A DNA stretch of 64,000 nt from an uncultured Cytophagales bacterium (GTDB lineage: Bacteria > Bacteroidota > Bacteroidia > Cytophagales > Cyclobacteriaceae): positions 186,001-250,000 of the forward strand of contig CAJXNP010000003.1 of the NCBI GenBank assembly GCA_913057175.1. Reading direction: 5' to 3'. Below the pieces are notes generated by a model. That model had not been told where the DNA came from, did not search any database, and was given only the letters and a program-made list of their open reading frames with translations. The number at the start of each line of letters is the position of its first letter. Position 1 is the first letter of the stretch. This document shows positions 29,623 through 64,000 of the stretch, one piece after another. The position numbers and the translations under genes are program-made.

Positions 29623-29749
29623 AGTATAAATATGATCAAAGTTTAATAAAGTATTGATTTCTGTACTGGTGCCTAAAGAGACAACAAATAACAACTACAA
29701 ATAGAAAGAATGGCGCTATAACGTTTGCAAAAGCCATCCCAAAAATGGC

Positions 29750-33373: not shown

Positions 33374-33499
33374 TAATAGTTTATGTCTATTGAAAAATAT
33401 GATGAAAACACCACTATTCCCCTCCTTGGAGGGGTGAAGGGGTGGGTCACTATCAAATAAATGTTTTTATCCGATTTTTCACAACGTGATTATTAACCT
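33374..33499 (+). repeat. Variable-arm hairpin element, copy D
   Basis: Arms 33391-33410 and 33462-33481 pair at 17 of 20 positions. The core has CACCACTATTCCCCTCC then GGAGGGGTGAAGGGGTGGG. Flanks identical in pattern to copy C (TAATAGTTTATGTCTATT; CACAACGTGATTATTAACCT) give about 126 bp. The right flank touches the regulator start: a GTG at 33486 belongs to the repeat, so the ATG at 33501 is the better start. Confidence 0.78.
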
Positions 33500-33500
33500 T

Positions 33501-43308: not shown

Positions 43309-43367
43309 TGTAAATGTCCTTGTTAAAGTATTATGGTATCACTAATGTTTTCTCGATGATAAATTTT

Positions 43368-44366: not shown

Positions 44367-44440
44367 TTGATTGTTTTAAATCATTAAAATGAATTCAATT
44401 AAAATACTGAAATATTAAGGTAATCGGGCTATCCATATTA

Positions 44441-45743: not shown

Positions 45744-48005
45744 TTACTTAATCAATCCCTGGTAACGGCCCATCCAGTAAGGTAGCAGCCAATAAACCGG
45801 CTCACGCTCCTGTGCCGGATTGCCGGCTACGGCGAAATATGGGTTTCGGTCCCAGCGCATGGTTCGATACTCACTTGGTGGTCTCAGCTCATTTACCTGA
45901 ACATCTTCCAGGCTAGGCTCACGCACCAGGTGAAGGTCTTCTCGCCGTCCATTGTCAATTGTCCAATCAACGAGGTCTAATGGTGCATCCTGTAAAAAGA
46001 AAATGGAGGTTTCAAGTTCATCGGTTCCTTCCGTCAACAAATTGTATGTGAAATTTAAAAGCGGGCTTTTGGTTTCTCTGAATTTATGAAACCATTGATC
46101 AAAGTGTGACTGGTATTCAGCTTTTAATGCTTCATCTTTTTCAAGATTTATAAGCGCCGGATAGATGTATAATGCCAGGTAAATATCGAAGTATGTCTCC
46201 CATGCCGGATTGGTGGTGTAAAGTGTCTTTGCATTATCCAGATAGCCCTCATCATGAATCAATCTCAGGTACTCATCCTGGTATATTTCTTTACCGGTAA
46301 TTTCATGGGCAAACTTTAAAAATGATAAGATCTCCAAAGAATTCAATGGTTTTTCAGGCGACCATTCCGGATCCTGATTCAGGCTTTGCGGCGACCAGAC
46401 TCCCCATTTGGTGGGTTTGCCATCCACCCCGATCAGGTAAAAATCATTCCTCACCAGGTGATCCATTATTTTTTCTACATGGTCGGCAACTCTTTGCTTT
46501 TCTGCATCATCGGCAACCAGGTAATAATACCAGTAATACCCAAAGAAATGTCCATCCAACTCGTCGCTGCTGGTATCGCCTTTCCACATCCATTTACCAT
46601 CCTCTGATAAATGCCACCTTACCTCCACCGGCTTTTGCCTAGGATTATTTACTAATTCATCCGCCAATTCCTGTGGGGTGTACGTTCTGTTCATATCGTG
46701 CGTCCTCTCCCAATCTGCAGGAACAATTGTTCGGGCAAAGAATCCATCCATCCCCGTTACTTCCCTCAAATAGTGCAAAAAATCAAACGCTTTTTTTGCC
46801 CGTACCTTCGCTTCTTCGCCACCCGTAACGGCATACCGGAATGATTCCATGGCGAGATACATTGCTGTATATTCACCATCATTATCATCATCGTCCGGAA
46901 CGATTGTTGAAGTATCTCCAGGAACTTCCAGTAAAAATCTCCCTACTATCCAGGGCTCACGAACATGGCGGGTGATCAATTGGGTGTAAAAGTAGTCAGC
47001 CTTTTGGGCTAAAGTCATTTCCTTCCTTTTTATCACACTTACACCACCCGCAGTTGCTATCCAACCATTCCCGCCTTTATCAAAAGTAATATCTCTCACT
47101 TCATCAGACATCAACCAGCGTTTGCTCAAACGAACAGAATATTCAGCTTCACCTGGAGTAAATCGGGAAATGCCATAATTGGTACCCACCCACATTCTTC
47201 CATCAGGTGCCTTTTTCACTACATTTACCTCCGAGTTTGTGATCCCATTTTCGGGTTTCTTTTCATCAATAACCTGATCATTTTTTCTGATGGTTACGCC
47301 ACCCACAACACCAACCCAAAGATTTCCCCTATTATCATAATCTAAACCTCTGACATAAGCGCTGATCAAATCCTCGTTTTTGTGGAACACAGTAGATTGA
47401 TCATCATTTGCATGACAAAGTCCGACATCGGTTCCGATCCAAAGTCCACCCTGACCATCAGAAATGGCTGCGCGCATGCTCCTGGCTTTTGTATAATCCT
47501 TTTTTATCCAATTACTTCCCTGATAAAACCAGATACCTTTTGGACCTAAGGCATATACTCCTTCCTCGGCTGTAACGACTTTGGCAACCGGACCTTCCGG
47601 TCCATCCATTTTTTCTACTTCTCCATTGATATCACTGTAAATTCCATCCCATGATGCAATCCAGATATTACCTTTATCATCAGAATCCACATCATAACCT
47701 GGTCCCTGCGCTTCACCCGAGATCATCGGTGACCAATTATTGCCGGAAGGCTTCTTTGAATAGATCCCGTTTTTTGTAGCAATCCATACATTGTTTTTGT
47801 CGTCGACATGGATGGCTCTCACATCATTGGTTGAGGCATTTTCCTTGTCAATGATATAACCTTCATGGTATTCCTGGGTAAAAGGTTCATCCTCGTGAAC
47901 GGCAGACAATGTTTTCGTTTGTTGCTGATTTTTTTCATTGCACGAAAATGATGAAATCAAAAAAATACCAAAAACCAGGAGTAAACGGGAATTGAAAATT
48001 TTCAT
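45744..48005 (-). CDS. Propeller-toroid lipoprotein 5
   Basis: 753 residues; lipobox SSFSC with Cys22. This copy has the clearest propeller (~45-350): NNVWIATKNGIYS, GNIWIASWDGIYS, GGLWIGTDVGLCH, GNLWVGVVGGVTI, GRMWVGTNYGISRF and GNGWIATAGGVSVI, all of Reg_prop type as in the sensor parts of hybrid two-component systems. The toroid part has DDNDGEYTAMYLA, GFFARTIVPADW, WMWKGDTSSDELDGH, KPTKWGVWSPQSL, NGRREDLHLV and YWLLPYWMGRY. NSHR is NGRR here. It starts 3 bp after the stop of the upstream GH92 gene, tying this family to alpha-mannosidases a second time. Confidence 0.75.
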   Translation of the reverse strand: MKIFNSRLLLVFGIFLISSFSCNEKNQQQTKTLSAVHEDEPFTQEYHEGYIIDKENASTNDVRAIHVDDKNNVWIATKNGIYSKKPSGNNWSPMISGEAQGPGYDVDSDDKGNIWIASWDGIYSDINGEVEKMDGPEGPVAKVVTAEEGVYALGPKGIWFYQGSNWIKKDYTKARSMRAAISDGQGGLWIGTDVGLCHANDDQSTVFHKNEDLISAYVRGLDYDNRGNLWVGVVGGVTIRKNDQVIDEKKPENGITNSEVNVVKKAPDGRMWVGTNYGISRFTPGEAEYSVRLSKRWLMSDEVRDITFDKGGNGWIATAGGVSVIKRKEMTLAQKADYFYTQLITRHVREPWIVGRFLLEVPGDTSTIVPDDDDNDGEYTAMYLAMESFRYAVTGGEEAKVRAKKAFDFLHYLREVTGMDGFFARTIVPADWERTHDMNRTYTPQELADELVNNPRQKPVEVRWHLSEDGKWMWKGDTSSDELDGHFFGYYWYYYLVADDAEKQRVADHVEKIMDHLVRNDFYLIGVDGKPTKWGVWSPQSLNQDPEWSPEKPLNSLEILSFLKFAHEITGKEIYQDEYLRLIHDEGYLDNAKTLYTTNPAWETYFDIYLALYIYPALINLEKDEALKAEYQSHFDQWFHKFRETKSPLLNFTYNLLTEGTDELETSIFFLQDAPLDLVDWTIDNGRREDLHLVREPSLEDVQVNELRPPSEYRTMRWDRNPYFAVAGNPAQEREPVYWLLPYWMGRYQGLIK

Positions 48006-50340: not shown

Positions 50341-51954
50341 CTATTCAAAAATATTAGACGTCAATATCTCGTCCCGGGAAACTTCGTCTGATGCAATCCA
50401 AATCTCTCCAAACTGCTTTTTGTTGACATCAGACAACCTGATGGTTGAGCTTTGACTCCCTTGTATTTCTATTGCAGCTTTAGATTTTGTGTAGGATACA
50501 GGGTTTGCCAAAAAAATATCGGAGACATTATTGGCTTTCATATAAGATGTGTTTTGGTTGATATCGGCTTTCAGATCCCTGAATTGTCCGTGTTTTACAT
50601 CCTCCAGGAAAAATGGTGAACGACGATCATCGGCGGCCAGGTAAAATTCAACATTCGAAAAGCGAACATTTTCTGCATGCCGGATAAACATGCCATATGC
50701 GGGCAACTTGCCAAACATGGTTGCTTCGGGATAGCTCTTTTCTTTTTCATCCACACTTTTATCCGCATCAGCAGGTGTTCCTCCTCCCGAATAAAAGATC
50801 CTGACATTTTCCATGGATATATTTTTAACAGGATATCCCGGAATCCCGCTTATACTTGAACCGTAATCTCCTGCATTGTAGGCTGTCACATTGGAAATAT
50901 GGACATTTTCAATGCTTCCAACACCAGGTTTGGGTAATGCTTTGTCGTAGCCCCTAGCACGGTTTCCCAGCCGTATGAAAATTGGCACAATCGGGCCATC
51001 CATAACTATATTGGAGATATTTACACCATTTAGCTCTGCCCCGTCTACAACTTCAAGGGAAATACCACTGATGCCATCCGGTTTTCCATAGATCACCTCC
51101 CGATCCCTGGAAGGTCTGATGACACAATTAGATATGGTAATGTTTTTAAAGCCGGCATTTGATTCTGTCCCGCACTTTATCGCATTGCAATGACTGCTCA
51201 GTATGCAATTCGTAATGGTAATATTCTCATTTGGCTGGGCATGGGTGCTTTTAAGGGTAATGCCATCATCATCCGTATCGCCCCGACAGTCAGATATGAT
51301 GACATCTTTGCAACCATCGATATCCATCATATCATTATTTTTGTTGCTATGATTATATACTTCTATGTTGTGGATATAGAGTTTTTCGCATGCCAGGTAA
51401 TGCTGCATCCAAAGGGCAGAATTTTGTAGCCTGATCCCTTCTATCTTAATATTTTTGCATTTTATCATCCAAATGACATAGGGTCTCACACTGTAAGAGC
51501 TTATGTTTTTATCTTTTGGCTCTTCAAATGCAGACCCCTGCCCATCAATCGTTCCTTCCCCCTTAATTGAAATGTTCTCTACATTCTCTGCGTATATCAA
51601 CGCTCTCTTTATCACATCTTTTCTGAAAAATGAATAATCGGGTAAATTCTCCGGATAATGGATCAGGTCGGTACTCCCCAATAATACAGCTCCTTTCTCC
51701 AGCCTGATGGACACATTGCTCTTTAAATAAAGCGTTCCGGTAAGATACTTTCCAGCAGGAAAAACTACTATTCCACCGCCTTCGGTCGCATCATCAATAG
51801 CGCGTTGGATAATTTCTGTGTTCAGCTTAACACCATCTGCCGTAGCGCCATAGTCAAGCACATTATATTCCTTTGCACTTACTACGAATGATACCATGGT
51901 AAAGAAAAGAACAAGTACTGCTTTATTAAATAGATAGTTATTGATATACATCAT
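50341..51954 (-). CDS. GH28-like right-handed beta-helix protein
   Basis: 537 residues with a signal peptide (VLVLFFTMVSFVVSA). Begins with the pectate-lyase superfamily opening YNVLDYGATADG, then FPAGKYLTGTLYLKSNVSIRLE, GEGTIDGQG and many parallel-helix rungs (NITITNCIL, NITISNCVI). The polygalacturonase-type Asp cluster is partly kept: NNDMMDIDGCKD and GDTDDDGITLKS. The GHG motif is replaced by SHCNAIKCG and no RIK motif is seen, so it is unlikely to be an ordinary polygalacturonase. It may act on another alpha-linked sugar or uronic/keto acid. Downstream of the sialidase-like gene by 6 bp. Confidence 0.85.
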   Translation of the reverse strand: MMYINNYLFNKAVLVLFFTMVSFVVSAKEYNVLDYGATADGVKLNTEIIQRAIDDATEGGGIVVFPAGKYLTGTLYLKSNVSIRLEKGAVLLGSTDLIHYPENLPDYSFFRKDVIKRALIYAENVENISIKGEGTIDGQGSAFEEPKDKNISSYSVRPYVIWMIKCKNIKIEGIRLQNSALWMQHYLACEKLYIHNIEVYNHSNKNNDMMDIDGCKDVIISDCRGDTDDDGITLKSTHAQPNENITITNCILSSHCNAIKCGTESNAGFKNITISNCVIRPSRDREVIYGKPDGISGISLEVVDGAELNGVNISNIVMDGPIVPIFIRLGNRARGYDKALPKPGVGSIENVHISNVTAYNAGDYGSSISGIPGYPVKNISMENVRIFYSGGGTPADADKSVDEKEKSYPEATMFGKLPAYGMFIRHAENVRFSNVEFYLAADDRRSPFFLEDVKHGQFRDLKADINQNTSYMKANNVSDIFLANPVSYTKSKAAIEIQGSQSSTIRLSDVNKKQFGEIWIASDEVSRDEILTSNIFE

Positions 51955-51960
51955 GTAGAA

Positions 51961-53316
51961 TTAATTATCCTTCACCCAGCTCACTGGAAAAGCTGCATAT
52001 TTTATCGTTTTATTTCGTCCGTCCTGTCGATCTTTTTGATGATAACTGTACACAATGTGTATTCGTCTGTTATCTCCCTGGATAATAGCCGGATAATGGA
52101 AGGAAGTAGCATTTTCTTCGCGTGGGTCGTGCTCGATTTTTTTCTTCCATTTCCAGGACAAGCCTTCATCATTTGAAATCGCAATGGTAAGATCGTGTCG
52201 TCCATCTTCCGTGTCATTGTACACCATTGCCCATTCACCGGATTCCAACGTCACCATATCAAATCCTGCTCCCGGGTTAGGTATTTCAGTATCTTTTGCA
52301 ATGGTCCAGGTGTATCCTCCGTCATTGGAATTAGTTACCTGCATTCTCTGTGGTGGCGGGCCATTGTCACGCAGATATGCTGTCAAACTCCCATCTTTTG
52401 AAATGCCTATTGTCGGTTGAATGCCAATGCCTCCCATCACCGGATTGCTGTACTGCCACGTCTTACCGAGGTCATCTGTTAAGGCAAACAATGAGCAATC
52501 GAGTCCATCAGAATATAAAGGTACAATCACCCTGTCGCTTATGATAATGGGTTTATTTTTGGTTTGCCAACCGATTCGTCTGGAAAGAGGATACCCAAGT
52601 GTTGCGGAATGTTCTTCATCGCCATCTTTAATTCGCCCGCTTCGCATCATGTTGGCACCACTTGCCAGACTGTCAATTCTTTTCCTGTAGGCTTTCCACC
52701 TCTTTTGCAATTGATCTTTTTGCTCACCAGTGATTTTTGTCATGAGCTCCTGGTTTAGGTAGGTTTCATATTCATCCAATTGTTTCTTTGAAGCTTCGAC
52801 AAACCGATCTCCAGGTTGTATGCCGCGCTCTGTCTTGTCTCCTGGCTTCACCAAAATGATATCCTGCCATGACCAAATGGGTGCTCCCGGCTCTTCATAA
52901 TCATCACTGATCCGATATTTTGGAATGGAAGTTTCCCATTGATTGGCAATAACAGGGTACCACATCAACCATAGCCTTTCTTTTGTATCCATAAAAAGTA
53001 TAGGGTTAATATCCGGGAAACCAGGAGTATCCGCCATTATAAACGGATCCGACCATGCCGTATCTCCTTTTTGCAACCTTGATCCCATGATCCTCACGTC
53101 ATCTGCCCAACGTTCTCCGGACCCCTGGAACCAAGCAGACAACAGGTCCCCGTTAGGTAATTCTACGATTGTCGGACCATGTGCATGCTCATGCTGCAAG
53201 GGAAATATAATTTGTTCAGAGACGGTTTTTTTTAATTTGTCCTCATTCTGTTTCATGCCACACCCCAGCATAAGGAGTATGATAACCCAGTATGATTGCT
53301 TCATTGATAGTTTCAT
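51961..53316 (-). CDS. Sialidase-like propeller lipoprotein 2 (BNR_2 type)
   Basis: About 451 residues from ATG 53316 (an alternative ATG lies at 53304; the open frame reaches 53361). Lipobox LMLGC. Propeller of the exo-alpha-sialidase superfamily, BNR_2-like: HAHGPTIVELPNGDLLSAWF, SGERWADDVRIMGSRL, TDDLGKTW, NSNDGGYTW and SNDEGLSW (Asp boxes). A charged helical insertion (~residues 155-215, EASKKQLDEYETYLNQ onward) interrupts the fold, which is unusual. Not closely similar to the propeller at 26870-28021. Active-site Arg triad not assigned, so true sialidase activity is unproven. Confidence 0.8.
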   Translation of the reverse strand: MKLSMKQSYWVIILLMLGCGMKQNEDKLKKTVSEQIIFPLQHEHAHGPTIVELPNGDLLSAWFQGSGERWADDVRIMGSRLQKGDTAWSDPFIMADTPGFPDINPILFMDTKERLWLMWYPVIANQWETSIPKYRISDDYEEPGAPIWSWQDIILVKPGDKTERGIQPGDRFVEASKKQLDEYETYLNQELMTKITGEQKDQLQKRWKAYRKRIDSLASGANMMRSGRIKDGDEEHSATLGYPLSRRIGWQTKNKPIIISDRVIVPLYSDGLDCSLFALTDDLGKTWQYSNPVMGGIGIQPTIGISKDGSLTAYLRDNGPPPQRMQVTNSNDGGYTWTIAKDTEIPNPGAGFDMVTLESGEWAMVYNDTEDGRHDLTIAISNDEGLSWKWKKKIEHDPREENATSFHYPAIIQGDNRRIHIVYSYHQKDRQDGRNKTIKYAAFPVSWVKDN

Positions 53317-53408
53317 TAGTTTATTTTTCTTTTTTCTAAAGCCAGAAAGTCGCGGTATCAATTGGGATTTGAATCAATAAAATTGATCGTAGAGTTTATT
53401 GGTTAATA

Positions 53409-54410
53409 TCAGAGCTCAGCTGCTTCAAAACGCTTCATTATTTCCTTCCAATCAGTAAATATGACACCTTCCTTTTCAAAGAACTTTATCATTTCAGGGT
53501 CGGAAAACATTTGAGCTTCCCATATACGCTGCTGCCAGGATCCCGTAATGGTTTTCAAATGTTCCGTCTCAACTGATGGATGAAAAATAATCTCTGTGAT
53601 TCCAGCCGGCAATGAACTTACAAGGCCTTGGAAAGCCTTTATTTTTTCCTCATAGGTTTCAGCATTAGGGGCGCTGGTAAAAAAATCTATTTTTGGCAGT
53701 GAATACGATTCCATAAATTCAATCAGTTCATCCGTAATTGGATATCCCTGACCTTTATAATATTCGACTACTTCCTGGTTTGACATATCAATCGCGTTGG
53801 CCGGTATGCTGTATTCCATTGCTATTTGCAGATAAGCTTTTGCAAATTCAGGATGCCCATATAAGGTGCCCATATGTGTGTCTATATGGCCTGGACGGTA
53901 CCCCAGGGCAAGGGATTTCTCTATCTGAGCCCTCACTTCTTTGGCAACTTCTTCTACCGTGGCATGCTGCACTACCTCTTCTACACTTCGCCACATCATC
54001 CCCTCCTCATCAATTAAGCCTGGCACTTCATCAACAGGTGTAACGGATGGCCAACGATATGTTTTCCACTCACTTGTCAAAGCAAGGTGTAGTCCTATGT
54101 CCATATCAGGATGCTCTTTCGCCCATTCTATCATGTCTTCAAAATAGGGACATGGAGGCATCGCAGCAGCTGATTGAATATGTCCATCCAACAAATCTCT
54201 TTTAGTAGCAATGTTAGCTTCTTCACACATACCAGCATCGTCCGCGTGGAGCATGATTACTTTTTTCCCGGCCGGATATCCAAGTCTTTCTGCCCAATTT
54301 GACCACTCTTTAACTGACGTTTGGTTTTCGTCAGACTTTTTTTTCTGATCGCAGGCAAGAAAAAACAGAATGGAAAAGATAAGAACAGGTAAAGTTTTAA
54401 TATACTTCAT
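53409..54410 (-). CDS. ChbG/HpnK (YdjC)-family carbohydrate deacetylase, lipoprotein
   Basis: 333 residues; lipobox FFLAC with Cys20. YdjC-fold motifs: MLHADDAGM (Asp57/Asp58), DIGLHLALTSEWK, HIDTHMGTLYGHP and IIFHPS, which together supply the metal His/Asp ligands. The family removes N-acetyl groups from chito-oligosaccharides or related sugars. Export as a lipoprotein is notable, since E. coli ChbG is cytoplasmic. It implies deacetylation of an oligosaccharide outside the cytoplasm, which could feed the GSD-type GH2 glucosaminidase at 34818-37499. Confidence 0.9.
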   Translation of the reverse strand: MKYIKTLPVLIFSILFFLACDQKKKSDENQTSVKEWSNWAERLGYPAGKKVIMLHADDAGMCEEANIATKRDLLDGHIQSAAAMPPCPYFEDMIEWAKEHPDMDIGLHLALTSEWKTYRWPSVTPVDEVPGLIDEEGMMWRSVEEVVQHATVEEVAKEVRAQIEKSLALGYRPGHIDTHMGTLYGHPEFAKAYLQIAMEYSIPANAIDMSNQEVVEYYKGQGYPITDELIEFMESYSLPKIDFFTSAPNAETYEEKIKAFQGLVSSLPAGITEIIFHPSVETEHLKTITGSWQQRIWEAQMFSDPEMIKFFEKEGVIFTDWKEIMKRFEAAEL

Positions 54411-54469: not shown

Positions 54470-56266
54470 TTATAGCGCCAATGACTTGTCAATAACAAAT
54501 TCATCTGAGATCTCGCCGAGACCGTTGTAAGATCTGTAAACCAATTTATGTCCATCAATAGACATATGTTGATAAAACTGTCCGTCCTTGTACCTCACTT
54601 CTGCATAGGGTTCCTGTCCGATATCATCATGATTCCCATTGATACCGATCGAAGTGGCATATACCGTTCCTTTCTGGAAACTGTTTACCACATTCCCATC
54701 AAACATGGGTTTTGACCTCATATAATAATGAACGTGTCCCGCCATGACCATATCCACATGATAACGATCAAAAATAGTACACCAGGCGTTCTGAATATCC
54801 GGATAAGGTTCTTCGAAATTATAAGGAGGAAAATGGAACATGGCAAATTTCCAGACCGCATCTGAATTTCTGAGTTTTTCTTCGATCCATTCTGATTGTT
54901 CTTCTATCGGATGTGTTGAATCGATCATAAGAAAAAGGGCATTTCCATATGTAAAAGCATATGTGCTTTCAGGGTGAACATGGGTCGGAGCATCTTTTGG
55001 GAAGTCAAACATTTCGTAATACATCCATGCTCCCAGACCATCCTGTCTGTCGTGGTTCCCTGGTACAGGCATCAACGGTTTCCTGGCAAATACTTCTCCT
55101 GAAAAACCGAACAGATCATCCCATTCATTCCTGTATAACCCCGTAGTTACCAGATCTCCCGCAATAGAATAAAAAGCCACTTCAGGATGCTTTTGATCAG
55201 CCACTTGCAATAAGTCTCCCCATAACTTTGAATGATGCGTGTCTCCAAACCAGATAAATGAAAACTGATCCTGATTCTCAGCCTGTGTTGTGAAGGTCAT
55301 CACGTCAGACCAATGGATATTTTCGTTTGAGCCAACGGTGTATTCATAAGTTGTTCCTGCATCTAAACCTGTCAGACCAGAAGTAAATCGATGTACATAC
55401 CTGTCGTTGTATAACATACGATCTTCCATTACAAATTTATCGGCAGAAGCAGTCAATGTATCTGTATCATTTTTCTTCCAATATTTTACCTCAGCGTTGC
55501 TGACGGAAGTACTTGTCCTCCACTGAATAGATTGCGTGTTTTTGGGATCATCACTCCATGTAAGCAAGATCTGATCCGGCTGGTCGACGGATGGGAACAA
55601 AGTCTCCCGAAAAGCTCCTTTTACATGCGCCTCACGGGCCCTTCCTCTTACAGTTGTAAACAAGGACTGACCTTCCAGTTCAGCAGGTAAATTCCGGATA
55701 ACCAGACCCGACCAGTCATGGTAGGTGAAAGCGCCTTCTTTCAACGTCATGATAGGATACTGTTCAGGATAATGATCAGAAATCACCAATTTGTCATTTG
55801 GTTCCTGTGGACCTACACAAATAAAATAAACAGGGCGATGCATATCGAATCCATTGATCCCAAGATTGATCCAACCTGTATCAAAATCCTTCTGCCAAAC
55901 TTCATATTCATACACCTCATTTTGTACAACATTATTGGTTTTCACAAAACCAGCCTCCTGCATCCAGAAAGGAATATTTTTTTGGCCAACATGCCGCATT
56001 AGCGAAACTGTAACCGGTACATTTACCTTGAAATACTGGTATTGTGTGGCCAACACATGTTTTTCTTCATTGGATAAAAAATCCATTATAAAGTCATCGT
56101 CAACCGTCTGATATTTATCTGACGGCACCTCTTGATACAACCTTGTAATAACATCATCCATAACTTCCTTGACCGAACGCCGGGTATCAGGATGACTTTT
56201 AACACCACAAGAAAAGCTTACAGAAATAAGCAAAAGAACAGTAGGTATGCTTATTAATTTTGACAT
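54470..56266 (-). CDS. Purple-acid-phosphatase-like metallophosphoesterase 2, with extra N-terminal domain
   Basis: 598 residues; lipobox SFSC with Cys20. A ~190-residue N-terminal region precedes the usual fibronectin-like domain (ILLTWSDDPKNTQSIQWRT ... YEYTVGSNENIHWSD) and has no recognised family; similar segments may serve for surface binding. Catalytic core motifs: WFGDTHHS, IAGDLVTTG, VPGNHDRQ, FHFPPY and AGHVHYYMRS. Starts 1 bp after the GDPD gene stop, so tightly coupled to it. Probably removes phosphate from a sugar or alditol phosphate. Confidence 0.9.
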   Translation of the reverse strand: MSKLISIPTVLLLISVSFSCGVKSHPDTRRSVKEVMDDVITRLYQEVPSDKYQTVDDDFIMDFLSNEEKHVLATQYQYFKVNVPVTVSLMRHVGQKNIPFWMQEAGFVKTNNVVQNEVYEYEVWQKDFDTGWINLGINGFDMHRPVYFICVGPQEPNDKLVISDHYPEQYPIMTLKEGAFTYHDWSGLVIRNLPAELEGQSLFTTVRGRAREAHVKGAFRETLFPSVDQPDQILLTWSDDPKNTQSIQWRTSTSVSNAEVKYWKKNDTDTLTASADKFVMEDRMLYNDRYVHRFTSGLTGLDAGTTYEYTVGSNENIHWSDVMTFTTQAENQDQFSFIWFGDTHHSKLWGDLLQVADQKHPEVAFYSIAGDLVTTGLYRNEWDDLFGFSGEVFARKPLMPVPGNHDRQDGLGAWMYYEMFDFPKDAPTHVHPESTYAFTYGNALFLMIDSTHPIEEQSEWIEEKLRNSDAVWKFAMFHFPPYNFEEPYPDIQNAWCTIFDRYHVDMVMAGHVHYYMRSKPMFDGNVVNSFQKGTVYATSIGINGNHDDIGQEPYAEVRYKDGQFYQHMSIDGHKLVYRSYNGLGEISDEFVIDKSLAL

Positions 56267-56267
56267 A

Positions 56268-57119
56268 TCAGAGATGTAGTTTTCGTTTTTTCAATGCTCT
56301 TAACAATATTTCAGGCTGATCCGTCTGGATGATGTTTGCGCCGTTTCTTAACAAATCATTAAGCGCTTTCTTTTCATCGCCCGCATCCAGCAACTCATCA
56401 TACTTCCCCAACGCATTGATCCACACCCTGCCATGATTGGATTTAATGAGCGCAGAAACTTCTTGTGTATAAAATGAAAAATCTATGTGAATAACTTCCG
56501 GGTGAAACCGGACTATTGCCGAGTCAGCCATTTCGTATGAATATGCACGCGGCATGAGCATAAAATCAGGGTCAACATCTATTATATGTTGCAGCCCTTC
56601 ATAATCGCTATCAAACCAAAAAACATGGTCTTCGCATTCCAGTTTTTTGATGACATGAATGATCGGATCCAACTGATCCGTTTTAATATCAATATCCACC
56701 AACACCTTCCCTTTGACCAATTTTAAAACTTCTTCAAAAGTGGGAATTTTCTCATCCGTAATATTCCCATTGTGGAGCAACCTGAATTTTCTTATTTCAC
56801 TCAAAGTATAATCGGATGGTTTGCCGGAGCCGTTGGTGGTCCGGTCAATGGTGCGGTCATGCATCAAAACGGGAACCCCATCTTTAGTAACTTTTACATC
56901 CAGTTCTACAATATCCACTCCCATGTCAATCGCATCCTGAATGGCCGGAAGCGAGTTTTCAGGGTAGTGATTGTGAGCAGCCCTGTGGGCAGCAACTAAT
57001 ACATATTTTGAATTTGCATCCAAAAACTGATTCCTGATTTCATCTACAGGATGCTGCGCACATACTACCGACGAATGGATTAGTAAGAATACAACCCAAA
57101 AAAATCTAATCTTTACCAT
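56268..57119 (-). CDS. Glycerophosphodiester phosphodiesterase (GDPD), exported
   Basis: 283 residues with a signal peptide (FFWVVFLLIHSSVVCA). GDPD motifs in order: AAHRAAHNHYPENS (His45, Arg46, Glu54), DIVELDVKVTKDGVPVLMHD (Glu72, Asp74, His87), RTTNGSG and GKVLVDIDIK. These Ca/Mg enzymes split glycerol-phosphate diesters such as deacylated phospholipid head groups, teichoic-type polymers or glycerophosphoglycans. Sandwiched between two phosphomonoesterase-like genes (1 and 23 bp gaps), it suggests stepwise removal: diester to monoester to free alcohol. Confidence 0.95.
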   Translation of the reverse strand: MVKIRFFWVVFLLIHSSVVCAQHPVDEIRNQFLDANSKYVLVAAHRAAHNHYPENSLPAIQDAIDMGVDIVELDVKVTKDGVPVLMHDRTIDRTTNGSGKPSDYTLSEIRKFRLLHNGNITDEKIPTFEEVLKLVKGKVLVDIDIKTDQLDPIIHVIKKLECEDHVFWFDSDYEGLQHIIDVDPDFMLMPRAYSYEMADSAIVRFHPEVIHIDFSFYTQEVSALIKSNHGRVWINALGKYDELLDAGDEKKALNDLLRNGANIIQTDQPEILLRALKKRKLHL

Positions 57120-57142
57120 CTTTTTCTTCAGATGAAAATTAT

Positions 57143-58498
57143 TTAATCTGTTTTGTGTCGCTCAGGAAAGTCCGGGATTTTATTGACAAGTTGATTGGGG
57201 TCTCCATTGTCACTTTTTATCAAATCAAAAGCATCATACAACTCACCGGTAGCGGTATAAGCGCCATATGATAAGGTATTTCCTTCGATAGAAATAATTT
57301 GATAAAGTTGAGTGTTCCCTGCCTTTCGGTCCATCCATGGGTCATGAGAATGGTCATACATTTTTGGGCCGCTGACTGAAACAACATACATTGTTCCGGA
57401 ACTTTTGTCTTTCACCTGGTACCCGGTAGGCACGTTGTTAACCATTCCTCGACCGTAGGCATGGTCATGGCCTTGCAATATGATATCTACCTTGTGCTTA
57501 TCGAAAATGGGCTTAAACATCTCCCTGAACTCTACATTATCCCGGTTTGGTTTCGTTGAAAATATAGGATAGTGAAAGGTGATGGCGGTCCATTTTCGCG
57601 GATCATGCGTCAATATCGAATCCAACCAATCCCTTTGGGCAATTTTGTATTCCTCCGATTCATCGATTTGTTCAGCATCCAGGGATACCACTTTAAAGTT
57701 AGGATAATTTACCTGGTAGCATTGTTCCTCCAGTCCTTTTGGCCCGTTGGCGGGAAGGTTGAATTGCTTTTTCCATTGAGGGGAAAACACCATATTTTTG
57801 TATTCGTGGTTTCCTGGAGTCATGACTGCCGGAACCATGGCATGGATAAAAGACCCTGCATAAAACCATTCACCCCATTCTACATCCCTGTCAAAACGGT
57901 TGATCAAATCACCGGCGTGAAGCATAAAGTCAACCTCTGGCTTAGAGCCATACGCCTGTCGGATCACCCTTGACCACATAGACTTCACACTATTCTGTGC
58001 ATCTCCAAAATAGACAAATGAAATTTTCTTGTCCGGTTCAGGCATTTGTATCTGAAACCACTCACTCCACCCAGACTCTGATCCTACCCGATACACATAT
58101 TTTTTCCCCGGTTCCAATTGATCTATGATAGCGGAATGATAGGTTGCAGAAACTTCTGGATCATTTTCCGGTTTGTAGATGAGCATTTCCCTTTTTCCGG
58201 GTATATCTCTTGTTTGATCAATAAATTCGGGGCCATGCGTTGCCTCGGCTACCTGAACAATTGACTCAACGACGGAAGTATCCGTCCGCCAGTTAACCGC
58301 CACAGAGTGTGTCGGATCATTTGTCAGGTTAAGAATAATTCGGTCAGGTGAGGTCGTCGGAAAGAGAAAATTGTTTGGTAAACCAGTAGATCCTGGCGTG
58401 TATACAATTATATTTTGGTCGGCAGGTTTAATGTTTCGACAACCTAAAATCCCAACAAGCAATACCCCTACTATAAATAATGTATTTCTAATCATCAA
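57143..58498 (-). CDS. Purple-acid-phosphatase-like metallophosphoesterase 3
   Basis: 451 residues; lipobox GILGC with Cys20. N-terminal fibronectin-like domain (IILNLTNDPTHSVAVNWRT ... YRVGSESGWSEWFQI), then a calcineurin core: YFGDAQNS, HAGDLINR, TPGNHEY, TFHYPIF and QGHDHAYGRG. Same length and layout as 25304-26659, clearly a paralog. First gene after susD, separated by a strong hairpin, so it is probably expressed at lower level than susCD. Confidence 0.92.
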   Translation of the reverse strand: MMIRNTLFIVGVLLVGILGCRNIKPADQNIIVYTPGSTGLPNNFLFPTTSPDRIILNLTNDPTHSVAVNWRTDTSVVESIVQVAEATHGPEFIDQTRDIPGKREMLIYKPENDPEVSATYHSAIIDQLEPGKKYVYRVGSESGWSEWFQIQMPEPDKKISFVYFGDAQNSVKSMWSRVIRQAYGSKPEVDFMLHAGDLINRFDRDVEWGEWFYAGSFIHAMVPAVMTPGNHEYKNMVFSPQWKKQFNLPANGPKGLEEQCYQVNYPNFKVVSLDAEQIDESEEYKIAQRDWLDSILTHDPRKWTAITFHYPIFSTKPNRDNVEFREMFKPIFDKHKVDIILQGHDHAYGRGMVNNVPTGYQVKDKSSGTMYVVSVSGPKMYDHSHDPWMDRKAGNTQLYQIISIEGNTLSYGAYTATGELYDAFDLIKSDNGDPNQLVNKIPDFPERHKTD

Positions 58499-58636
58499 AA
58501 TTAATTTTTAAAGTCAAAATCCAGGTTATAACAAATATGGCGGTAGTTGGAATGAATATCTTCTAAATTCAAGTGAAACAATTATCAAGTGGTTTTTCAA
58601 AGCAATAAATTATCTATACACTTACAAATAGTGTAT

Positions 58637-58665
58637 AAAGCCATCCCGAAAATCGGGATGGCTTT
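58637..58665 (-). terminator. Strong hairpin between susD and the phosphatase genes
   Basis: A perfect 13-bp stem AAAGCCATCCCGA / TCGGGATGGCTTT with a 3-nt loop. It lies 40-70 bp after the susD stop in transcription order. T-runs are short on both sides. A typical position for an attenuator that lets susCD be expressed more than downstream genes. Confidence 0.75.
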
Positions 58666-58704
58666 TATTATCAATTAACCCCAATTAATACCAAATTGGA
58701 TATC

Positions 58705-60378
58705 TTACCATGGGTTTCCTGTTCCTTGAAGTAACCAAGGTTTAGAATACGGGCTATCTTTTCCTAGTTGGCCGGAATAATCCGTTGTTTCCAGGTTATC
58801 AATAGCGCTATTCACATTGTCTGTATTATTATTGAGTTCATCACCACCATAACCAAACCTAACGGCAGGTACCGGTTGAGGTGCACCATTGCCAACACTT
58901 AATACAGGAAATCCTGTTCTCTTATAATCATTCCACGCTTCAGTTGCCGAAGTGAAACTAGCTACCCATTTCTGAGTAATAATTTGTTCAACGGTTCCGT
59001 CAAAAGCAACCTGTGCTACAAAATCAGCATACTGATCAGCCACTCCCCAAACCTCAAGGGAACTTCCAATTCCAGCATTGTAGTGTTCTTCAGCATCTCC
59101 AACATTCCAACCTTGTAATGCCATCTCCGCCAGTGTAAAATGCATTTCAGCCGCAGATAATAACCTTGACTGAAGTAAATCTCCCGGCAATGCATGACCA
59201 TCCATAAAGGTTGAGGTCATCATCGAAACATGGACATTATGCCTACCCTGACCCGGGCTTGGGTTTCCATTGTAGCTTTGAATTTCTGATATTAAAATAC
59301 CAGGTTCCACTCCAACATATTCACTATCGATAAATGTGACATCATTAGGATTGTATTTTCTTGTGAAAGTAGCTGAACTACCCTGATAATCTATCCAATC
59401 CGGCCAGATTGCACTTTCAACGCCATCGATATACATTACATCCTCAAAACCACTGATATTTGTATCCTGTACCCATCGAACCTGTACCGGATCAAACCAC
59501 ACAGATAATCTTGGATCATTTGATGCAGTAAGCTGATCAATGAATGTTTTACATGATTGATATCTTGTAGAGCTTTGCTCATTATCATATATAAGCGGCC
59601 ACTGATCATCAGCCCCACCGGTATAATCCATTGTGGCATCCTCACTGGTCCTTGAAATATACTTACCACTTGCCACGATGGCCTCTACAGCAGATTTAGC
59701 CTCAGAAGCTTTTTTCTCAGATAATCGTACCCAATATCTGATTAACAGAGAATTTGCAAATCTTTCCCATGCCTCCATATCACCAGCGTAATACAAATCT
59801 GCATTTTCATCAACAAAAGTATCATCTCCGGTAGCAAACAGTGCAGATGCCGCCTCTAAGTCTGCGATGACACCCATGTATATCGATTCCTGTGAATCAA
59901 ATGCCGGATATTGAAACTCAAGTTCTCCTTCTGCTCCTTTTAAGGCAGTTGAATAAGGAGCATCTCCCCAATAATCAGCAATTTGACCAAATAAAAACGC
60001 ACGCATTACCAGGCCAACGCCTTCGTGAAAAGCAAACCCGTTTTCTCTTGATACTTCTATCAACAATTGATTCGTTCTCAGATTGTCATAATAAGAAGTC
60101 CAATCAGAACCATCCCATTCGAAATAGTTAATACTTCCTCCCCAACCAGAAGCCTGCAATTGTTGCATGGCTCCGGCCATATTTATTAATCCGAGATTAA
60201 GATATGAAGATGCAGTAGGACCCAAGACCGAAGGCATTAATAAATTAGCATTGCCATCAGCCGGATTTACCGCATTCGGATTCTCATTCAATTCTGTCAA
60301 CTTATCATCACAGGCATTCATGACCAGCAATGTCATAGCCAGGATTAATATTCCTTTTATTTTTTTTATCTTTTTCAT
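58705..60378 (-). CDS. SusD/RagB-like glycan-binding outer-membrane lipoprotein (SusD-like_2 type)
   Basis: 557 residues; lipobox MNACDD with Cys23. Begins KLTELNENPNAVNPADGNAN, the standard SusD-like_2 opening, then LMPSVLGPTASSYLNLGLIN and FLFGQIADYWGDAPYSTAL in the TPR-like part, with a C-terminal region rich in aromatic and Asn/Gly segments (WNDYKRTGFPVL). Binds the oligosaccharide at the cell surface as the lid of SusC. Follows susC by 24 bp. The SusD-like_2 group is often found with peptides or glycoconjugates as well as plain glycans, so cargo is open. Confidence 0.95.
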   Translation of the reverse strand: MKKIKKIKGILILAMTLLVMNACDDKLTELNENPNAVNPADGNANLLMPSVLGPTASSYLNLGLINMAGAMQQLQASGWGGSINYFEWDGSDWTSYYDNLRTNQLLIEVSRENGFAFHEGVGLVMRAFLFGQIADYWGDAPYSTALKGAEGELEFQYPAFDSQESIYMGVIADLEAASALFATGDDTFVDENADLYYAGDMEAWERFANSLLIRYWVRLSEKKASEAKSAVEAIVASGKYISRTSEDATMDYTGGADDQWPLIYDNEQSSTRYQSCKTFIDQLTASNDPRLSVWFDPVQVRWVQDTNISGFEDVMYIDGVESAIWPDWIDYQGSSATFTRKYNPNDVTFIDSEYVGVEPGILISEIQSYNGNPSPGQGRHNVHVSMMTSTFMDGHALPGDLLQSRLLSAAEMHFTLAEMALQGWNVGDAEEHYNAGIGSSLEVWGVADQYADFVAQVAFDGTVEQIITQKWVASFTSATEAWNDYKRTGFPVLSVGNGAPQPVPAVRFGYGGDELNNNTDNVNSAIDNLETTDYSGQLGKDSPYSKPWLLQGTGNPW

Positions 60379-60402: not shown

Positions 60403-63400
60403 TTAGAAGTTGAAGTTTAGTTTGAAACCGAAAGATGCACTCCATGGCATCACGTTTTGGCGTTCAAAACCCTGCTTAAACTGGCTGTTGGTATTACCCT
60501 GTGTTCCTCCGTTTGCCTGGAAAGCCCTTTCCGGATCAATACCGACCTGCGCAGCGTTCCAAAGCATCAGGTTTCTTGTATAAACCGCGAAGGATGCATT
60601 GCTAATGCCACCGAAATTTGGAATCCGGTAAGCAAGCGATAGTTCCCTTAGCTTAACAAAAGAAGCATCAAAAGTTATATTTTTATTATAGCTCCATGGA
60701 TAGGTGTCGGTTATGGGTGCAAATACTGTACCTTCACCACCTAAGTTCTCCTCATAAACATCATCGCTGTAATCATCAGGAGTATCTGCTCCAGCTACCT
60801 GAACTACACCAGGAATAAACGCTCCATCATACCCACCATCGTCAAGTGGAAATCCACCGGTTTCCTGTGTATGTCCACCAACTCTTGGATATTTGCCCAC
60901 CTGAGGGATGATATATTCTTCCGGATTGCTTTTTAATAAATCTTCCAATTCTTCCGGAGACATATTTCCTCCCGGAATTAACTGATCAATTTGTCGTTGC
61001 GATTTCCAGTCAGATTCGCCATACCTGTAAGTGTAGGACACAAATTCCCCACCTTGTCTCCAGTCTATACTGGCACTTAATATAAATCTACCGTAGGACA
61101 AAGTGGTCTGGGTACCCAACATAAAATCGGGATTGAAATTCCCTACTTTTTCCCAATCCTGAGTATCTTCCAATGTTACCCATCCTCCTGCTTCCAGAAT
61201 AGGCCATTTGTAGTATTCGGAATTAGGGTCTTGTACCTGCGCAATACCGTAGCTGTAAATATCACCTATTTTATCACCAACAAATGAATATGCCCCCGCA
61301 TTCTCACTCCATATCTGGATGAACTCAAGATCGTCGGTCAATTCCTCAACTGTTGTTGAGTTCCTTGTGAAATTAAAGTTAATATCCCAGGTTAAGCCAT
61401 TGGCATTCCTGATTGGAGTACCGCCAACTGAAATTTCAATACCCTCACTATTTATCAATCCGGCGTTGATCAATTTACTGCTGAACCCTGATGACCTTGG
61501 CAGTGGAACAGAAAAGATTTGGTTTTCATTATCCATTGTATAATAGGTACCGCTGAATCTCAAGCGATCTTCGAACATGTTGAAATCTATGCCAAATTCC
61601 AATGATGTTGCCTGTTCAGGTTTCAAATCAGGATTAAGTAATGTACTCGGTACGGTCTGGGTTGTTAAAGAATTCCAGGTGCCAATATCGAGAGATTGTT
61701 GTAGCCTGTATGGATCTGTGTCATTACCAACTTGCGCCCATCCTGCACGTGCTTTCAACAAGCTGATACTATTAGGCAACGCAAATGTATAGTTGGCCAA
61801 CCAGCTTAACGATGCAGAAGGATAGAAATAAGATCTGTTTTCTGCTGGCAATGTGCTTGACCAGTCATTTCTTCCTGTTACATCCAGGTATAGCATACCT
61901 TTATAACCGACCGATGCTAATCCATATAAACTATAAATAGCCTTCTCATATTGATCCTGCTCTACTCTAATATTGTTTATTGGTATATTTTCGATGGAAT
62001 AAAGACCAGGAATTACCAGTCCATTTCTTCTATCATTTCCGGACCCGGTTAGTGAACTTGAGCTTTTGCGATTCATGATATTCCCGCCAACGGATAGATT
62101 AATATCCCAATTTGCATTTGCCTTTTTGTAGGATGCCAGGAAATCGGTATTTGCTTCCTGGTAGAATATATCCTGAACGGTATAGTTACCATTTGGCATT
62201 CTGTCATTGCTAAACGGAACAATCGTTTCCCTGTTCTCATTGTAACTGTCCATTGCCGACCTGACCATCAAAGAAAGATTATCAGTAAAATCATAGGTAA
62301 GGGACAGGTTTCCATAAGCCCTGTCACGGTTAAATGAATTACTCATTGCATACGCTATAAAATATGGATTATCACCTCTTGGAGGCTTATTTTGCTGAAT
62401 ACCTTCAAGGCCTTCCTCCCAGTAATCTTTCATCAGGTTCACATCTATATATGAAGAGGTGTAAACAGCTTCCAATGGGTTATTTCTTCTATCTCCCGTA
62501 CTTGGAATGTCATTTGATTTACTCCTGCTCAGGGTGATATTAGAATTGAAGGTCAGCTTGTCCAAAAGCTTATAGTTAATGCTTGTTTTCAAACTGTTGT
62601 TAAACCGATCGCTGTTTGGAATCATTCCCCTCATTGACATATTCGCATAGGAAATCCTAAAATCACCTTTATCGCCACCTCCGGTAATTGCAATATTATT
62701 TGTGGATGTTATTCCGGTTTGCATAAAATCCTTCATATTATTTGGGTATGACTTGAGTTCGGTAGGTGAATCGTATCCCCACTGCTCATGAACATTACCA
62801 GCATCCAAAGTAGGTCCACCCCAATAGGCAGAACCCTCATCCAATGTAGAATTTCTCCCACCATTGGCATATTTATAATGGAAATCAAGAAGCCTGGTTG
62901 GCTTTTCAAACAATGTGCTTGTAGAAACTGATACGCCAAGCTTTTTTGAACCTGAACCCGATTTTGTTGTAATGATAATTACACCATTACCAGCCCTGGT
63001 ACCATATAGCGCTGCAGCACTTGGCCCTTTAAGGACCGTCATGCTGGCGATATCATCCGGGTTAAGATCAGAAATTGCATTACCATAGTCAACCTGGTTT
63101 CCATCTCCATTCTGAGCGACGTTATTTAAACTATTGCTCATTGGCACACCATCAATGACAAATAGTGGCTGGTTATCCGTAGTAAGAGAAGTTGCTCCCC
63201 TGATTATGACACTTGTTGTAGAACCTGCACCACCAGTTTGATTGATCTGTACACCAGAAACTTTACCAGCTAATGAGTTCATAACATTGTCCTGTGAAAC
63301 GACTGTTAACTCGTCGCCATCTACTTCGCCAACAGAATACCCCAAAGATTTGGTTTCCCGCTCTATTCCTAGCGCTGTAATGACAACTTCATCCATTGCG

Positions 63401-64000
63401 GTAACATCGGGAGACATAGCCAGATCAATCACTGTTTTGTTCCCAACCTCAACTTCTTCGGTCAAAAAACCCACAGAGCTGAAAACCAATACACTTTCGG
63501 TGCCAAGAGTTTCAATGGCAAATTCCCCATTTACATCTGACACAGTTCCATTTGTAGTACCCTTTTCAACAATGTTCACTCCCGGCAATCCTGTGTTGTC
63601 TTCCGTAGAAGTAATTCTACCGGTGATTCGGGTACTTTGCAGAACACCACCTGTGTTTAATTTAGATTGAACTTCTGTACGTTTCCTGACGACAATATTA
63701 TTATTGACCGCTCTAAATTCTAAGTTTGAATTCTTAGAAATCTCAATTAATAAATCACGTAAATTTTCAGCATTCTCAATTTTAATTTTTTTGTCTAACT
63801 CTGTTTTAATCTCATCTTCATAAATGAAAAAATATTTCGTGTTACTAGATATTTCATCTATTATCTCGATGATTTTACCTTCCTTGATACGCATTTCTAC
63901 TTTGGTATCTTTCAGGTCTCCCAAACTACTTGCAGCAGCATACGCTGAACTGTAAGCAACAATCGCTACTAAGACAACAAAAGGCCTCAATAACAACTTA
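60403..64000 (-). CDS. SusC/RagA-type TonB-dependent transporter with STN domain (5' end beyond window)
   Basis: About 1198 residues are visible. The frame is still open at the right edge (a TTG at 63996 is only an apparent start; the codon before it is AAG), so the first few residues and the true ATG lie outside. Order: signal peptide remnant (RPFVVLVAIVAYSSAYA), STN domain (~30-103, KIIEIIDEISSNTKYFFIYE), carboxypeptidase-regulatory-like domain (~123-200, ITGRITSTEDNTGLPGVNIV), TonB box region DEVVITALGI (~201-210), plug with the SusC-type GVIIITTKSG segment, and a 22-strand barrel ending in Phe-Asn-Phe. The STN domain implies signalling to a FecR-like anti-sigma factor, probably encoded just outside the window. 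Confidence 0.97.
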   Translation of the reverse strand, partial: KLLLRPFVVLVAIVAYSSAYAAASSLGDLKDTKVEMRIKEGKIIEIIDEISSNTKYFFIYEDEIKTELDKKIKIENAENLRDLLIEISKNSNLEFRAVNNNIVVRKRTEVQSKLNTGGVLQSTRITGRITSTEDNTGLPGVNIVEKGTTNGTVSDVNGEFAIETLGTESVLVFSSVGFLTEEVEVGNKTVIDLAMSPDVTAMDEVVITALGIERETKSLGYSVGEVDGDELTVVSQDNVMNSLAGKVSGVQINQTGGAGSTTSVIIRGATSLTTDNQPLFVIDGVPMSNSLNNVAQNGDGNQVDYGNAISDLNPDDIASMTVLKGPSAAALYGTRAGNGVIIITTKSGSGSKKLGVSVSTSTLFEKPTRLLDFHYKYANGGRNSTLDEGSAYWGGPTLDAGNVHEQWGYDSPTELKSYPNNMKDFMQTGITSTNNIAITGGGDKGDFRISYANMSMRGMIPNSDRFNNSLKTSINYKLLDKLTFNSNITLSRSKSNDIPSTGDRRNNPLEAVYTSSYIDVNLMKDYWEEGLEGIQQNKPPRGDNPYFIAYAMSNSFNRDRAYGNLSLTYDFTDNLSLMVRSAMDSYNENRETIVPFSNDRMPNGNYTVQDIFYQEANTDFLASYKKANANWDINLSVGGNIMNRKSSSSLTGSGNDRRNGLVIPGLYSIENIPINNIRVEQDQYEKAIYSLYGLASVGYKGMLYLDVTGRNDWSSTLPAENRSYFYPSASLSWLANYTFALPNSISLLKARAGWAQVGNDTDPYRLQQSLDIGTWNSLTTQTVPSTLLNPDLKPEQATSLEFGIDFNMFEDRLRFSGTYYTMDNENQIFSVPLPRSSGFSSKLINAGLINSEGIEISVGGTPIRNANGLTWDINFNFTRNSTTVEELTDDLEFIQIWSENAGAYSFVGDKIGDIYSYGIAQVQDPNSEYYKWPILEAGGWVTLEDTQDWEKVGNFNPDFMLGTQTTLSYGRFILSASIDWRQGGEFVSYTYRYGESDWKSQRQIDQLIPGGNMSPEELEDLLKSNPEEYIIPQVGKYPRVGGHTQETGGFPLDDGGYDGAFIPGVVQVAGADTPDDYSDDVYEENLGGEGTVFAPITDTYPWSYNKNITFDASFVKLRELSLAYRIPNFGGISNASFAVYTRNLMLWNAAQVGIDPERAFQANGGTQGNTNSQFKQGFERQNVMPWSASFGFKLNFNF

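Follow-up and report, generated by a model that had tools for sequence, protein, structure and literature searches.

A stretch of 64,000 nucleotides from an uncultured Cytophagales bacterium of the family Cyclobacteriaceae (contig CAJXNP010000003.1, positions 186,001 to 250,000; hereafter, the window) carries near its end a susCD gene pair followed, on the same strand, by three genes for predicted exported phosphoesterases. Two of these resemble purple acid phosphatases (PAPs) and are named PAP1 and PAP2; the third, a GDPD-family phosphodiesterase, lies between them. A first-pass annotation had regarded the trio as a module that removes phosphate from an imported glycan. Its elements are as follows:

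60403..63996, minus strand: SusC/RagA TonB-dependent transporter (TIGR04056, 591 bits)
58705..60378, minus strand: SusD-like lipoprotein (SusD-like_2; PF12771, E 7.4e-70; PF12741 also assigned)
58640..58664 (approximate extent), minus strand: strong hairpin in the gap between susD and PAP1 (fold z -4.4)
57143..58498, minus strand: PAP1, a PAP-like binuclear metallophosphoesterase, predicted exported (PF16656, Pur_ac_phosph_N, and PF00149, Metallophos)
56268..57119, minus strand: GDPD-family phosphodiesterase, predicted exported, with a weak DUF4996 C-terminal part (PF03009, E 4.5e-31)
54470..56266, minus strand: PAP2, a second PAP-like metallophosphoesterase with a long N-terminal region (PF16656 and PF00149)

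The Pfam matches of the three phosphoesterases all exceed the Pfam cut-offs. Their open reading frames (ORFs) were found where the annotation had placed them, with intergenic gaps of 23 and 1 bp, and all three have signal-peptide-like or lipoprotein-like N-termini, in agreement with the proposed export, as predicted by a simple rule of our own and not by a trained predictor. Judged from the sequence, the ATG at 58495 is a likelier start of PAP1 than the TTG. The trio had been described as lying directly after susD. It is indeed downstream on the same strand; however, a gap of 206 bp (58499-58704) intervenes, and a 105-nt fold in this gap reaches -33.1 kcal/mol (equally stable shuffles, 0 of 200). 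Because of this hairpin, transcription of the PAP1 module may start at a separate promoter or need read-through, and PAP1 expression may differ from that of susCD.

On the minus strand, from 63996 down to 41117, the gene order is SusC, SusD, PAP1, GDPD, PAP2, YdjC, a BNR_2 protein, a GH28-like protein, GH92, a propeller-plus-helical protein, a membrane protein, GfoIdh, DegT and a DHDPS-family protein. A polysaccharide utilization locus (PUL) is recognized here both by the adjacent SusC and SusD genes and by glycan-active enzymes, as Pfam scans of 37 non-overlapping ORFs of the window detected GH92, GH28, GH2, GH20 and YdjC. Two further phosphoesterase genes, which the first-pass annotation had listed as more distant companions of the trio, are also real:

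25304..26659, plus strand: third PAP-like metallophosphoesterase (PF16656 and PF00149)
28108..29694, minus strand: MetallophosN/C protein (PF16370/PF16371)

The 28108 protein had no match among the ORFs of the stretches compared in a syntenic relative, genome G511 (see below), and it is at most a putative member of the PAP1 module.

The genome (6.62 Mb, 98.7% complete, 40 contigs) encodes four Pur_ac_phosph_N domains, three of them inside the 64-kb window; by our own arithmetic, the chance of finding at least three of four in 64 kb is about 4e-6. A separate profile search returned the same four proteins and, weakly, the 28108 protein. Two GDPDs score above the cut-off in the whole genome, one of them in the window. 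The fourth protein with a Pur_ac_phosph_N domain (L058, G000:C22:70001-84000) adjoins a SusCD pair and a type I phosphodiesterase-like gene, and the same locus holds genes that we read as metallo-beta-lactamase-like and aminotransferase-like.

The active sites of these enzymes were examined by alignment. In 44 rows, made of the window PAP1 and 43 relatives (with the duplicate pairs L038=L121 and L040=L120, which come from the same contigs), deviations from the metal motifs GDAQ, AGDL, GNHE, H-x-P and GHDH are few; the first motif is missing in one fragment. We take the residues of these motifs to be the remaining PAP metal ligands, namely Asp, Asp, Asn, His, His and His. Where PAPs have their tyrosine ligand (GDxxY), Asn is found in 40 rows, His in two, and Asp and Thr in one each. 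The tyrosine is likewise missing from PAP2, PAP3 and the 25304 protein. This residue is a ligand of Fe(III) and the source of the purple colour of PAPs. PAP1 has the two-domain plant fold and the other metal ligands of a purple acid phosphatase but not its tyrosine.

A structure model of PAP1 (mean pLDDT 76.4, built from 7 sequences) matches a plant PAP over most of the PAP1 length (Z 36.3, root-mean-square deviation 2.8, 376 residues aligned). Further matches of the model are PhoD (Z 24.9), the sphingomyelinase-like SMPDL3B (Z 18.8) and GpdQ (Z 17.8), and the modelled fold leaves monoester and diester specificity undistinguished. A role of PAP1 as a phytase was considered and discarded: the wheat PAP phytase reached Z 31.5 at best, under other plant PAPs, and general PAP similarity accounts for that match. 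In the GDPD, the catalytic motifs His/Glu-Asn/Glu-Asp/His-Asp are conserved across 33 sequences and, together with a PF03009 match that spans profile positions 1-117 of 244 only, assign the protein by sequence to the family. Its nearest solved structures, 3i10 (E 7.4e-38) and 3mz2, carry family names only.

The distribution and neighbourhood of PAP1 were then analyzed in relatives. Searches of 395 class genomes and 295 family genomes gave PAP1 at E 1e-60 or better in 12 and 88, respectively (own included). From 31 non-self PAP1 places, 22 loci with at least 56% identity were gathered via PAP1 alone; the set leaves out G032 and G015, which came in via GDPD (L048, L050), and seven further places. 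These 22 loci span 13 genera (G562 and G582 contribute two each), extend over at most 20 kb and are in some cases cut by contig ends. A family was scored as present from 0.45 bits per residue upwards. Twenty regions of 20 kb, one per mapped genome at hand-chosen round positions, were used as controls; 9 of the 20 genomes host none of the 22 loci. Sugar-type genes were counted with a strict set (YdjC, ROK, MFS, GH20, GH92, GH2, GH28, NagX) and with a wide set that adds BNR_A (the BNR_2 sialidase-like family), PropAA (the propeller-plus-helical family), the LacI/AraC regulator, DegT, GfoIdh, DHDPS and SSF.

SusD is the immediate upstream same-strand neighbour of PAP1 in 11 of the 22 loci, SusC and SusD are both present in 12, and another phosphoesterase family is found in 12. 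At least one strict sugar family accompanies PAP1 in 13 loci and at least two in 4; with the wide set, the figures rise to 18 and 15. The families most often seen are the membrane protein, the propeller-plus-helical protein and a PhoPQ-related protein (10 loci each), YdjC (9) and BNR_A (8), followed by GDPD and the LacI/AraC regulator (7 each), PAP2 and ROK (5 each) and a ceramidase-like protein (4). GH20, MFS and DegT occur in two loci each and GfoIdh in one; NagX, GH92, GH2 and GH28 were found in none of the 22. The control regions contained one SusC and none of the remaining families, so that SusD, phosphoesterase and sugar-type genes were absent from all 20. Hence, PAP1 accompanies SusCD in loci of glycan type, and its co-location with the other genes is conserved, as are the identity of the genes and their active-site motifs.

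PAP2 was found in 22 of 196 family genomes (own included), and 10 of the other 21 have it no more than 20 kb from PAP1. Eight further PAP2 loci were inspected. Three of them (L192-L194) have PropAA with NagX (L192, L193) and/or GH20 plus SusC (L193, L194), and in L195-L197 and L199 SusCD, the membrane protein and the LacI/AraC regulator are present. Counting the source genome, the 25304 protein was detected at E 1e-120 in 4 of the 295 genomes, and a close PAP1 is present in each of the other three. Of 17 loci gathered via GDPD (L038-L054), 10 hold PAP1, YdjC, BNR_A, GH92 or other partner families; GH92 shares the locus with GDPD in L043 and L045, and in L041, from the cultivable Flavilitoribacter nigricans DSM 23189, GDPD occurs together with a PAP1 relative and SusCD.

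Two side observations were made in these neighbourhoods. In L038 (=L121), L049, L050, L118, L119, L127, L148, L149, L150 and L187, a PhoPQ-related protein is adjacent to a Ceramidase_alk-like one, with PAP1, PAP2 or GDPD nearby. Close to GDPD, an exported protein whose N-terminus we read as PHP-like was seen at L041:12510-13697, L038:5915-7003 and L044:10924-12036; the two copies scanned, those of L041 and L038, gave no Pfam match.

As close PAP1 relatives are accompanied by susCD, other phosphoesterases and sugar-type genes across genera, phosphate removal from a glycan is the best reading of the locus. We consider it somewhat probable that this is a substrate-induced glycan utilization locus whose exported phosphoesterases strip phosphate off an imported amino-sugar-containing substrate. 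As for the substrate, we favour a glycan or glycolipid head group that would bear phosphate and probably contain amino sugar. The idea that the imported glycan carries phosphate thus gains from the recurrent co-location, while the phosphomannan or glycosylphosphatidylinositol (GPI) glycan offered as examples by the annotation found no support, for reasons given below.

A competing explanation is phosphate scavenging: SusCD would import organophosphorus compounds from which the PAP-like enzymes and the GDPD free phosphate for growth. In its favour, the phosphate utilization system (PUS, or PusCD) of Flavobacterium johnsoniae has this very layout, as the available portion of PMC8115612 describes a SusCD-like pair beside phosphomono- and diesterases. 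In addition, 9 of the 22 PAP1 loci lack a strict sugar family, and neither PstC nor PhoU was found above the cut-off in the genome, where PhoB and PhoR were not searched for. This result agrees with the earlier remark that phosphate-starvation genes are missing, but by itself it is no proof against scavenging: in the same portion of PMC8115612, pstS is missing from a subclade of Flavobacterium, and a plant-associated strain with pstS lacked pusCD1. On the other hand, PUS clusters are reported there to be set apart from carbohydrate-enzyme SusCD clusters, whereas sugar-type genes recur around PAP1 (13 of 22 loci with the strict set, 18 with the wide one) and a LacI/AraC-type regulator is found in 7 of 22. 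PusD1 and PusD2 belong to pf07980/pf14322 (PMC8115612, same portion) and the SusD of the window to PF12771/PF12741, although PusD is polyphyletic. Altogether, we regard scavenging of the PUS kind as unlikely.

The remaining genes of the window bear on the nature of the glycan. Those that continue the minus-strand series below PAP2 are:

53409..54410, minus strand: YdjC carbohydrate deacetylase (PF04794, E 8e-55)
51961..53361, minus strand: BNR_A, BNR_2 sialidase-like protein (PF13088)
50341..51954, minus strand: GH28-like protein (PF00295), also in L039 and L044
48009..50321, minus strand: GH92 exo-alpha-mannosidase-like protein, accessory (PF07971; nearest solved structure 6f8z)
45744..48005, minus strand: propeller-plus-helical protein (PropAA family), of which only the propeller part is recognized by fold
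44441..45724, minus strand: hydrophobic, probably multi-spanning membrane protein by our reading (marginal DUF3464 match, probably spurious)
43368-44366, minus strand: GfoIdh oxidoreductase, best NCBIfam match below cut-off
42082-43308, minus strand: DegT aminotransferase (nearest solved structure, 2-deoxy-scyllo-inosose aminotransferase)
41117..42028, minus strand: DHDPS-family protein (PF00701)

A second group lies further towards the start of the window:

34818..37499, plus strand: GH2 exo-beta-D-glucosaminidase-like protein of CsxA type (2vzs, E 1.6e-148; GSD and NSE segments kept)
33486..34667, plus strand: regulator with LacI-type ligand domain and AraC helix-turn-helix (PF13377 and PF12833)
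32086-33348, plus strand: NagP/gluP-like MFS transporter (NCBIfam, NagP score below cut-off)
31191-32042, plus strand: ROK sugar kinase (Pfam/NCBIfam scans)
29856..30953, minus strand: NagX-like transmembrane glucosamine N-acetyltransferase (PF07786; NF046061, 182.8 bits, under the 480 cut-off)
1663..2181, minus strand: extracytoplasmic function (ECF) sigma factor (Pfam scan)

The GSD and NSE segments of the GH2 protein are presumably catalytic. The hexosaminidases of the first-pass annotation are one GH20, cut by the window start, and this GH2 protein. Pointers to an amino sugar are the NagX-like acetyltransferase, the NagP-like MFS, ROK, YdjC, GH20 and the CsxA-type exo-beta-glucosaminidase; across PAP1 loci, YdjC and ROK are the only genes of amino-sugar type that recur often. 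An amino sugar is accordingly better supported, at the level of predicted function, by the window and G511 than by the PAP1 loci in general. The presence of DHDPS- and HpcH-family proteins points to a 2-keto-3-deoxy acid.

The two alpha-mannosidases reported near the trio are present as two GH92 genes, and with them comes the possibility that the substrate is an alpha-mannose-rich phosphoglycan (phosphomannan) or a GPI glycan. GH92 accompanies GDPD in the two loci cited above, a GH92 relative exists in G511 (L187), and DegT and GfoIdh weakly resemble inosose/inositol enzymes. If such a locus is defined, as we do, by alpha-mannosidases conserved with phosphoesterases, the neighbourhoods do not conform: GH92 is absent from all 33 PAP1-gathered loci (0 of 22 and 0 of 11 in the close and distant sets), and G511 keeps neither GH92 at its syntenic place. 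Both GH92 proteins are nearest other GH92 enzymes in the PDB, far from CcMan5. The glucosamine of GPI is alpha-linked, which makes a GH2 of beta-glucosaminidase type a mismatch. Membership in an inositol pathway was also rejected, because the best NCBIfam match of GfoIdh, inositol 2-dehydrogenase (IolG), scores 100.7 bits against a cut-off of 355, and the proximity of DegT to inosose aminotransferases in the PDB is insufficient. A phosphomannan or GPI substrate is, in our opinion, hardly probable.

Salvage of glycolipid head groups or envelope material is another alternative. The substrate would be a glucosamine-containing phospho-glycolipid, for example lipid A/lipopolysaccharide core or a glycosyl-inositol-phosphoceramide, which ceramidase-like enzymes would N-deacylate in relatives. 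The Ceramidase_alk-like (4 of 22) and PhoPQ-related (10 of 22) neighbours of PAP1 weakly hint at a lipid or acylated substrate, the window has both a beta-glucosaminidase and NagX, and the sialidase-like BNR and pyruvate-aldolase families could suit an ulosonic acid. However, the ceramidase matches reach 22.7 and 33.1 bits against a cut-off of 32.1, and no ceramidase appeared in Pfam scans of the window. We hold this alternative to be decidedly unlikely.

The syntenic relative G511 (contig C21) keeps the gene order of the window in three stretches. The first contains homologues of 5573-7903-12952-15262-16649; the second, SSF-DHDPS-HpcH-propeller-PAP(25304)-BNR and, further on, NagX-ROK (NagX in L185); the third, MFS-regulator-propeller-DHDPS-DegT-GfoIdh-membrane protein-FecR-SusC-SusD. 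In the window, the PAP1 operon is located between susD and the membrane-protein gene. In G511, an operon of PAP1-GDPD-YdjC-BNR_A-propeller is found elsewhere on the contig, and between it and the syntenic SusD lie, in L187, a second, more distant SusCD pair, the GH92 relative and a PhoPQ/ceramidase-like pair. The PAP1 operon and the genes on the susCD side are thus two modules that co-occur and are not always joined. DegT, GfoIdh, the DHDPS-family protein and the membrane protein (41117-45724) are grouped in the window and also in G511 (L186).

Genes for signalling are found at several points. A FecR gene lies just upstream of susC, outside the window (L055:98-1120); its best relatives precede SusC in L186 and SusC-SusD-PAP1 in L151 and L152. 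In L151 and L152, the FecR genes of the FecR-SusC-SusD-PAP1 series are themselves immediately preceded by relatives of the window's ECF factor (1663). Along with the recurring LacI/AraC regulator, FecR and the ECF factor point to a putative control by substrate.

Several observations weigh against phosphate removal from an amino-sugar glycan. The 11 PAP1 loci below 56% identity show no SusC plus SusD, two or more sugar families in one case only and GDPD in three; the association belongs, therefore, to the close PAP1 clade. Within the 22 close loci, the low counts of GDPD and of glycan-type genes (NagX, GH92, GH2 and GH28 absent; GH20, MFS and DegT in two loci each) indicate that PAP1 loci can do without the full trio and without amino-sugar genes. 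Among the 17 GDPD-gathered loci, 7 are without partner families (L042, L046, L047, L051-L054), which makes GDPD a frequent but not fixed member; one of the eight PAP2 loci, L198, lacks any partner. In G511, the PAP1 operon is about 70 kb away from the syntenic SusD. The NagX, NagP and IolG assignments score under their NCBIfam cut-offs, and PUS systems are an example of SusCD and phosphoesterases that can serve to acquire phosphate (PMC8115612, available portion). A shared operator was also sought by Gibbs sampling of 30 upstream regions and discarded: scores of 239.2 at width 16 (222.5-232.8 in three shuffles) and 256.1 at width 20 (241.1-244.9 in shuffles) came with AT-rich patterns only and are not used as evidence. 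The absence of NagX from all 22 loci, together with the presence of two or more strict sugar families in only four, lowers our confidence in glycan phosphate removal, and in its extension to an undescribed class of loci given below, and raises that in scavenging.

If phosphate removal from a glycan does take place, the following sequence of events can be envisaged; its substrate, order of action and induction are what we infer from gene content. SusCD would import into the periplasm an oligosaccharide that carries phosphate, or a glycolipid head group, where a diesterase (the GDPD or one PAP-like enzyme) would open phosphodiesters and a PAP-like phosphatase would remove the exposed monoester. 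YdjC might then deacetylate N-acetylhexosamine, and the exo-beta-glucosaminidase and other glycosidases would release sugars. NagX may re-acetylate glucosamine, the NagP-like MFS and the ROK kinase would feed the amino sugar into metabolism, and the DHDPS/HpcH-family enzymes could handle a 2-keto-3-deoxy acid. Control would be exerted by the LacI/AraC regulator and FecR/ECF signalling.

Other proteins of the window deserve mention. Five propeller-plus-helical paralogues are encoded at 45744-48005, 38522-40837, 7903-10179, 12952-15189 and 23098-25227. Pfam gives propeller-type matches or none, and the 12952 protein has no PDB sequence match. The family has invariant SSD, DG-x-PT and further residues. 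In a fold search and a VIA-align comparison, propellers were matched with the full protein as query. Judged by its residues, the family is a candidate new glycan-active family. Three large proteins, at 5573-7900, 16649-19243 and 2759-5422, are possibly new glycosidases: the 16649 protein has weak GH67-N and GH20b matches, the 2759 protein has a DUF4838 match, and the 5573 protein, with no Pfam match, resembles 16649 by eye.

A tentative and rather doubtful extension of the glycan phosphate removal hypothesis is that the locus represents an undescribed class of SusCD loci for glycoconjugates with phosphate-joined or phosphate-capped amino sugars, which tyrosine-less PAP-like enzymes and GDPD would unmask with the assistance of new glycosidase families such as the five propeller-plus-helical proteins. 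Substrates might be, for example, lipid A/lipopolysaccharide-core fragments, phospho-glycolipid head groups or phosphodiester-linked bacterial polysaccharides. If glycan phosphate removal proves true, a set of Bacteroidota eats a phosphate-bearing glycan, with the regulator, SusD and the phosphoesterases as routes to its identity. The locus would then take a place between known PULs and the phosphate-starvation PUS and couple the turnover of carbon and phosphorus in a single uptake system; PAP-like proteins that lack the tyrosine ligand would acquire a function, and the unclassified protein families of the locus would be candidate new glycan-active enzymes.

Among the matches listed from the open-licence PMC literature, in the portions available, no SusCD glycan locus with PAP/GDPD phosphoesterases was found, and comparison was made with five partially similar systems. 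With the NanOU sialic acid uptake system (PMC3969230, available part), the window shares a SusCD-type pair. Known nan loci also contain sialidase, aldolase-family and ROK genes, which have counterparts in the window, and phosphoesterases are not known to be part of NanOU. BNR_A, however, is only weakly like solved sialidases (best E 4e-5). The Shewanella NagP/NagX glucosamine route, identified by NCBIfam names, has in common with the window a membrane glucosamine acetyltransferase, a GlcNAc-type MFS and a ROK kinase; however, the window proteins score below equivalog cut-offs, and their genes sit in a SusCD locus. PAP1 resembles plant-type purple acid phosphatases and PhoD in fold and domain order, and departs from the former, as do PAP2, PAP3 and the 25304 protein, in the missing tyrosine. 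A canonical PUL is made of SusCD with CAZymes. The window is similar in its SusCD, exported glycoside hydrolases, FecR, regulator, sugar transporter and kinase, and differs in having several PAP-like, GDPD and other metallophosphoesterase genes as recurrent members, besides several unclassified families. Finally, the PUS/PusCD system matches the window in the co-location of a SusCD-like pair with exported phosphomono- and diesterases (PMC8115612, available portion), but here the cluster is not distinct from carbohydrate-enzyme clusters: glycan-type genes, a LacI/AraC regulator and FecR are interleaved with the phosphoesterases, and SusD belongs to another Pfam family.

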